33,850 nt of DNA from positions 1-33,850 of the forward strand of contig JAFGTQ010000007.1 in NCBI GenBank assembly GCA_016934015.1. The letters run 5' to 3'. Below, in pieces: positions 13,997-15,112 of this stretch (the stretch's first letter is position 1; each line of letters begins with the position of its first letter). The DNA is from Acholeplasmataceae bacterium. GTDB lineage: Bacteria > Bacillota_I > Bacilli_A > Acholeplasmatales > Acholeplasmataceae. Below the pieces are notes generated by a model. That model saw nothing but the letters and a program-made list of their open reading frames with translations, did not search any database and was not told the origin of the DNA. Made by a program: the position numbers and the translations under genes.

Positions 13997-15112
13997 ATGG
14001 CAATCAAATTTGAAGTTCTACATGTATGTAAACAAAGTGGTGCTAGATTGGGGCGTTTAACAACTCCTCATGGTGTTTTTGAAACGCCTTTTTTTATGCC
14101 AGTAGGTACACAAGCAACAGTGAAAACATTGACTCCCGAAGAAGCTTTTGAAGTCTCAGAGGGCTTAATATTAGGCAATACTTATCATTTATGGCTACAG
14201 CCAGGCAATGAATTAGTGAAGGAACATGGTGGAATTCGTGGCTTCATGAAATGGAAAGGTGCACTCTTAACCGATAGTGGTGGATACCAAGTTTTCTCAC
14301 TCACGGATATGCGAAAAATCACAGAGGAAGGCGTCCATTTTAAACATCATAAAAATGGTTCAGCACTCTTCATATCACCCGAAGATTCGATCAAAATTCA
14401 AGAGGATTTAGGTGCGGATATCATCATGAGTTTTGATGAATGCCCACCCCCATATGAAACGGATGAATATATGAAAACATCGGTGGATCGAACTATTCGA
14501 TGGGCAAAAAGAGGGAAAGATGCGTTAACAACCGATCAAGCACTTTTTGGTATTGTACAAGGTGGTTTAAATAAAGATTTACGCAAGTATTGTGCAGAAG
14601 AATTGATTCAAATGGATTTTCCAGGTTATTCTGTTGGTGGTCTTTCAGTCGGTGAAACGAAACACGAGATGTATGAAATCACTAAATTTTTGAATCCGAT
14701 TTTACCCTTTGATAAACCAAGATATTTGATGGGTGTTGGTGCTCCAGATGATTTAATCATGAATGTTATTAACGGTATGGATATGTTTGATTGTGTCTTG
14801 CCGACACGTATCGCAAGGCATGGCACAGCTTTAACAACACAAGGTAAAATAGTCATAAAAAACCAAACATATGAAAAAGATATGAATCCTTTAGACCCAC
14901 ATTTAAAAACACCCGTTTCTAAATATACAAGAGCTTATATCAGACATCTTTTTAAAGCGGAAGAAATATTGGGTATGCGATTAGTAACTTATCAGAATTT
15001 GGCTTATTTGAAGCACTTAATGAAAGAAATTAGAACTGCGATTAAAGAAGATCGTTTGTTAGATTATCTCGAAGAGATGAAGAAAACGACGAATTACTTT
15101 AAATCGCGATAA
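13997..15112 (+). CDS. tgt: tRNA-guanine transglycosylase Tgt, lacking the zinc-ligand residues
   Basis: Tgt exchanges the wobble guanine of GUN-anticodon tRNAs for preQ1. The 371-residue protein keeps the catalytic Asp in [12 protein letters not shown] (D93) and the nucleophile in [14 protein letters not shown] (D265). It keeps the pocket segments FDECPPP, GIVQGG and GGLSVGE; the C and V here fit bacterial preQ1-type enzymes rather than eukaryotic queuine types. The usual zinc segment CxCxxC after PLDP is replaced by HLKTPVSK (residues 302-309), and the fourth ligand, the His in TYHNL-type motifs, is Gln (Q333). All four ligands are therefore missing while the fold around them is retained. 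It is divergent from queT. Confidence 0.94.

Follow-up and report, generated by a model that had tools for sequence, protein, structure and literature searches.

Can a bacterial tRNA-guanine transglycosylase remain a working enzyme once all four ligands of its structural zinc have been replaced? The question is raised by the tgt gene of the window, by which we mean the whole stretch of 33,850 nucleotides analysed here. A zinc domain has been called a hallmark of the TGTs (PMC6165067), and TGT has been described as requiring zinc for its activity, with reference to Chong et al. 1995 (PMC9508795). The features from which the question arises are the following:

13997..15112, plus strand: tgt, open reading frame for a tRNA-guanine(34) transglycosylase of 371 amino acids (TIGR00430, 485.7 bits; PF01702, 500 bits)
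14897..14923, plus strand: replaced zinc loop PHLKTPVSK, codons 301-309, in which L303, T305 and S308 occupy the former Cys positions (alignment to the E. coli K-12 Tgt and 117 relatives)
14993..14995, plus strand: Q333 in place of the fourth zinc ligand, a His (Q in 53/54 zinc-less relatives, H in 63/63 full-length zinc-type relatives)

The former zinc site

The window encodes a full-length Tgt, which matches TIGR00430 (tRNA guanosine(34) transglycosylase Tgt) from residue 5 to residue 366 at a score well beyond the curated cut-off of 306.75 bits and belongs to that family by score over its full length. The CxCxxC...H zinc site is no part of the TIGR00430 criterion, and it is absent here: in the alignment to the E. 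coli K-12 enzyme the three Cys columns hold L303, T305 and S308 and the His column holds Q333, the sequence reading TYQNL where zinc-type enzymes have TYHNL. The loop is in addition one residue shorter than that of zinc-type Tgts, with the deletion falling just before Y310. Judged by homology, catalytic residues and gene context, the protein is thus a Tgt, but not a Tgt of the zinc type. The first-pass annotation of this DNA, which had placed the loss of the ligands in codons 301-333 (14897-14995), behind a PLDP motif at residues 298-301 and with D93 and D265 in place, was correct as to the open reading frame, the coordinates and the residue numbers, Q333 included.

The residues that took over the ligand positions are themselves conserved among the zinc-less relatives: position 303 is L, I or F in 54/54, position 305 is T or S in 49/54, position 307 is V or I in 47/54, and position 308 is S in 45/54. 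No Cys occurs from residue 285 onwards in the alignment of 53 of these 54 sequences, so no other set of ligands is at hand near the former site; alternative ligands nearby, which the annotation had named as grounds for abandoning its reading, were looked for and are absent to that extent. Measured by pN/pS, the loop (residues 302-309) stands at 0.57, as against 0.25 for the whole of tgt, 0.23 for the barrel and 0.24 for the helix that follows. It is the least constrained and fastest-changing part of the gene, yet a pN/pS of 0.57 still denotes purifying selection, and its key positions are conserved.

Distribution and origin of the zinc-less state

Relatives, from 98% identity downwards, came from a scan of genome contigs and from searching 150 genomes that belong to the order and 198 that belong to the class. 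The families of the order are designated here f1 (Acholeplasmataceae-like), f5 (a second family-level group) and f2, f3 and f4. All Tgts read from the wall-less bacteria of f1 and f5 lack the three Cys; they make up 55 distinct sequences, of which 54 have Gln for His. Outside these two groups the complete CxCxxC and His set is present in 63/63 full-length relatives, and CxCxxC is kept in f2, f3, f4 and all further families read from the class, where L116 is the sole exception to His at the fourth place. In a Tgt tree of 118 distinct full-length sequences, from which the ligand columns had been removed, the zinc-less state amounts to one change, a branch of support 99 separating the 55 zinc-less rows from the rest; the tree was built by a quick method, contains some long branches (L091 with L092), and is rooted according to the sampled outgroups. 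The distribution and the tree point to a single loss of the zinc site, in an ancestor shared by these two family-level groups of Acholeplasmatales. Horizontal acquisition of a distant Tgt was considered as well and is rejected on the same tree, in which the zinc-less clade sits among the Tgts of its own order and class.

The MAG from which the window comes is fragmented (77 contigs, 83% complete), which might invite the view that the missing site is a sequencing or assembly error. Yet 54 further distinct sequences, some of them from isolates and complete chromosomes, carry the same replacement, and the chance that an error explains it is vanishingly small. The loss is common to an independent MAG whose Tgt is 98% identical (L012), to Haploplasma modicum ATCC 29102 (L021) and to Peloplasma aerotolerans, and is found likewise in the complete chromosomes CP017948 (L016) and CP076021 (L018) and in G027, a single-contig genome of 1,496,992 bases (1.497 Mb) that we take to be probably Acholeplasma laidlawii PG-8A. 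The claims that the four positions had changed together and that the site had been replaced whole, as opposed to mutated in one read, are accordingly upheld by the change of all three Cys and the His, by the shortened loop and by their spread across the clade, isolates and complete chromosomes among them. The ligand loss does form a clade, as the annotation had proposed to check, and close relatives with an intact CxCxxC and His, which would have told against it, were not found in the sample.

Three sequences depart from the general pattern. L116 (f3, genus code g28), which is outside the full-length rows of the tree, has the complete CxCxxC together with a Gln in place of the His; in L092 (f1, genus code g12) the ligand sites hold no Cys, yet residue 333 is His. 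A distant, insert-bearing Tgt at L054:6001-7299 has lost the zinc Cys while keeping the His, and part of its GGLxVGE pocket motif is missing; perhaps it represents an independent loss of the zinc Cys in another lineage.

Catalysis, fold and probable preQ1 salvage

The remainder of the protein is that of an ordinary transglycosylase. The catalytic aspartates D93 and D265, together with D147, C149, Q188 and E220, are invariant in the zinc-less set of 54 sequences, and V218 is kept in 53/54, in agreement with the earlier claim that the catalytic pair and the preQ1 pocket remain. Y310 (53/54), Y314 and H317 (each 54/54) are retained too, and these are the residues at the dimer hot spot of the Z. 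mobilis TGT. In the AlphaFold model, block means of pLDDT are 96-99 across residues 291-350, and the model superposes on the Z. mobilis enzyme with a TM of about 0.95 and an rmsd of about 1.4 A. This match indicates compatibility with the Tgt fold and is no proof of metal independence, since the prediction follows from the alignment and AlphaFold folds homologues whether the metal is needed or not. A queuine-specific Tgt was also considered as an identity for the protein and is disfavoured by V218, C149 and the presence of QueA.

The neighbourhood of tgt bears on what the enzyme would be doing. On the opposite strand lie two features:

13403..13888, minus strand: queT, preQ1 transporter component of the ECF type, next to tgt and divergent from it (PF06177, 132 bits)
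13895..13935, minus strand: preQ1-I-like (type II) riboswitch in the queT leader, with P1 TTAGCTG/CAGCTAA, loop TACCCTAGGAAAC, A-rich tail and Shine-Dalgarno sequence

The longest queT reading frame starts at 13954 on the minus strand, and the riboswitch and Shine-Dalgarno sequence make 13888 the most likely start; a start assigned automatically, at 13954, would overwrite the riboswitch. The preQ1-I type II riboswitches, the subtype in control of queT, are recognised by an AC that precedes the 3' strand of P1 (PMC11625349). The element here shares with that class the hairpin with this AC, the A-rich tail, the internal Shine-Dalgarno sequence and a queuosine gene, queT, directly downstream. The motif recurs in 49/57 distinct queT leaders of related f1 and f5 loci, and P1 covaries among the leaders (GCTG/CAGC, GCGG/CCGC, GCAG/CTGC). 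It differs from the described class in being unreported by Rfam in this lineage and in its loop, TACCCTAGGAAAC in most of f1. The RF00522 covariance model gave no match at its gathering score in the window or in eight related loci, and none at E<=10 around the queT of the window.

A divergent queT lies 84-223 bases from tgt in 21/23 zinc-less genomes, where queA is never near tgt; in zinc-type genomes, by contrast, queA lies within 1.3 kb of tgt in 14/16 and queT is never beside it. On the tree, one and the same stem carries both the move of tgt from the queA-tgt cluster to the side of queT and the loss of zinc. QueA itself was found in 39/39 genomes tested, though in the incomplete genome of the window as no more than a fragment at the end of a contig. 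G027 has QueG, and tblastn with the E. coli proteins found no QueC, QueD, QueE or QueF there; with QueA in all the genomes, it follows that queuosine (Q) is probably made from imported preQ1. In other mollicutes Tgt, QueA and QueG were lost early, A. laidlawii alone being left with tRNAs that possibly contain Q (PMC4014445).

Might the zinc-less protein have given up transglycosylation and been repurposed, for example as a binder of tRNA or preQ1? The element of the domain that it has lost is one that PMC9508795 describes as needed for activity. Set against this, 54 sequences show no variation in the catalytic and pocket residues, QueA accompanies the zinc-less Tgt in every genome tested, and the window's genome yielded no further Tgt, as far as its 77 contigs and 83% completeness reach; such a repurposing seems highly improbable. 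The retention of the catalytic, pocket and dimer residues, the lack of substitute ligands and the TM of 0.95 make an active zinc-free Tgt the best reading, and we consider it very likely that these are functional, zinc-free bacterial Tgts, in which the structural site was replaced as a unit in the ancestor of the two groups. Counted against this reading are the zinc requirement given in PMC9508795, the weak constraint on the loop, and a quick tree whose rooting depends on the outgroups.

In the common ancestor of f1 and f5, Cys-Cys-Cys-His gave way to Leu-Thr-Ser-Gln, with the loop shortened by one residue. The loop may be tied to the helix by hydrophobic packing of L303 and V/I307, and Q333 may form hydrogen bonds with T305/S308 or with the backbone of the loop. 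The subdomain, which aids tRNA binding and homodimer formation, would keep its fold without the metal, and the enzyme would still exchange G34 for imported preQ1, in keeping with the adjoining QueT, the preQ1-I-like riboswitch and the presence of QueA. The replacement in the sequence, its single origin on the tree, the retained catalytic and interface residues and the gene context are direct observations, from which we infer the absence of zinc, the activity and the new contacts.

Relative to the known bacterial Tgts (TIGR00430; E. coli, Zymomonas mobilis), then, the protein shares the whole fold, the catalytic Asp pair, the preQ1 pocket, the dimer-interface aromatics and the partnership with QueA, whereas its four zinc ligands are replaced, its loop is shorter and its gene lies beside queT instead of queA. 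What is new would be a zinc-free variant of a known enzyme; open-licence papers, which are less than the full literature, yielded no report of a zinc-less Tgt or on Acholeplasma zinc ribbons. A clade of natural Tgts without the ligands, probably including the culturable Acholeplasma laidlawii, allows the role of zinc to be probed directly. It also offers a datable example of an enzyme shedding a structural metal site, and here the loss of zinc goes together with a turn to preQ1 salvage, marked by the queT-tgt pair and its riboswitch.

Zinc limitation and relaxed demand as possible causes

The first-pass annotation had supposed a zinc-free lineage adapted to metal limitation. The lineage is real in that the zinc-less state forms a clade without alternative ligands; the adaptation fares less well, as f5 keeps zinc-type S14 and L36 and many other zinc sites persist. 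In its broader form, the proposal is that zinc limitation selected for the loss of structural zinc sites throughout the lineage, the loss in Tgt being one step among these. It draws on several ribosomal proteins: S14 is of the zinc-free long form in 12/12 f1 genomes read, L36 lacks Cys in 9/10 (G003 keeps three), L31 and L32 of G027 are without the zinc Cys, and the fourth Cys of one L33 paralogue, kept in f3 and f4, is missing from f1 and f5. The PriA of G027 (priA at C1:333220-335367) keeps the first zinc site of the E. coli protein, whereas each of the four Cys in the second is gone.

Several observations oppose the proposal. The Tgt site is gone in f5 while S14 and L36 (and L31 in G019) stay zinc-type there, as S14 and L36 do in f3, f2 and the relatives from the class wherever read; the largest users of zinc were therefore not shed first. 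G027 keeps the sites of LigA, IleRS, DnaX, RecR, AccD, MutM, RsgA, DnaG, TopA and RpoC and the C-terminal site of UvrA, and the amount of zinc saved on Tgt, which is probably a minor protein, would be small. Selection by zinc limitation hence looks doubtful, and a zinc-poor life as the motive is a fair but unproven idea. We would advance just as tentatively an ordered loss of zinc from the translation and DNA machinery of the Acholeplasmatales, in which Tgt and one L33 would have gone first and S14, L36, L31, L32 and the second PriA site later, and in which Tgt would have been rebuilt on a conserved Leu-Thr-Ser-Gln cluster for zinc-poor cells that live by salvage only.

In many bacteria the zinc-free (C-) forms of ribosomal proteins are paralogues induced at low zinc. 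The zinc-less Tgt resembles the C- forms of S14, L31, L32, L33 and L36 in that a structural zinc site was removed with all its ligands lost in coordination, and zinc-free variants of S14, L36, L31 and L32 occur in its own lineage. It differs from them in being a tRNA-modifying enzyme that was found as a single copy, without a paralogue of the zinc type.

Neutral drift would need no saving of zinc: once tgt had left the queA-tgt cluster, preQ1 salvage would have eased the demand on it, and a loop that could be tolerated would have become fixed and later been refined. That the relocation beside queT and the loss of zinc share a stem, and that the loop changes faster than the rest of the gene, both fit this course. 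The replacement residues, however, are conserved (Q333 and L/I/F303 in the fractions given above), and the new loop is therefore functional, beyond being merely tolerated. Drift of this kind has, in our estimation, an even chance of being the cause.

Two lesser observations concern other zinc proteins of the lineage. The UvrA of G027 has Ser for one N-terminal Cys (C256). The long form of L31, to go by match lengths, which offer a hint, is seemingly limited to genus code g4 and a second copy in G042.
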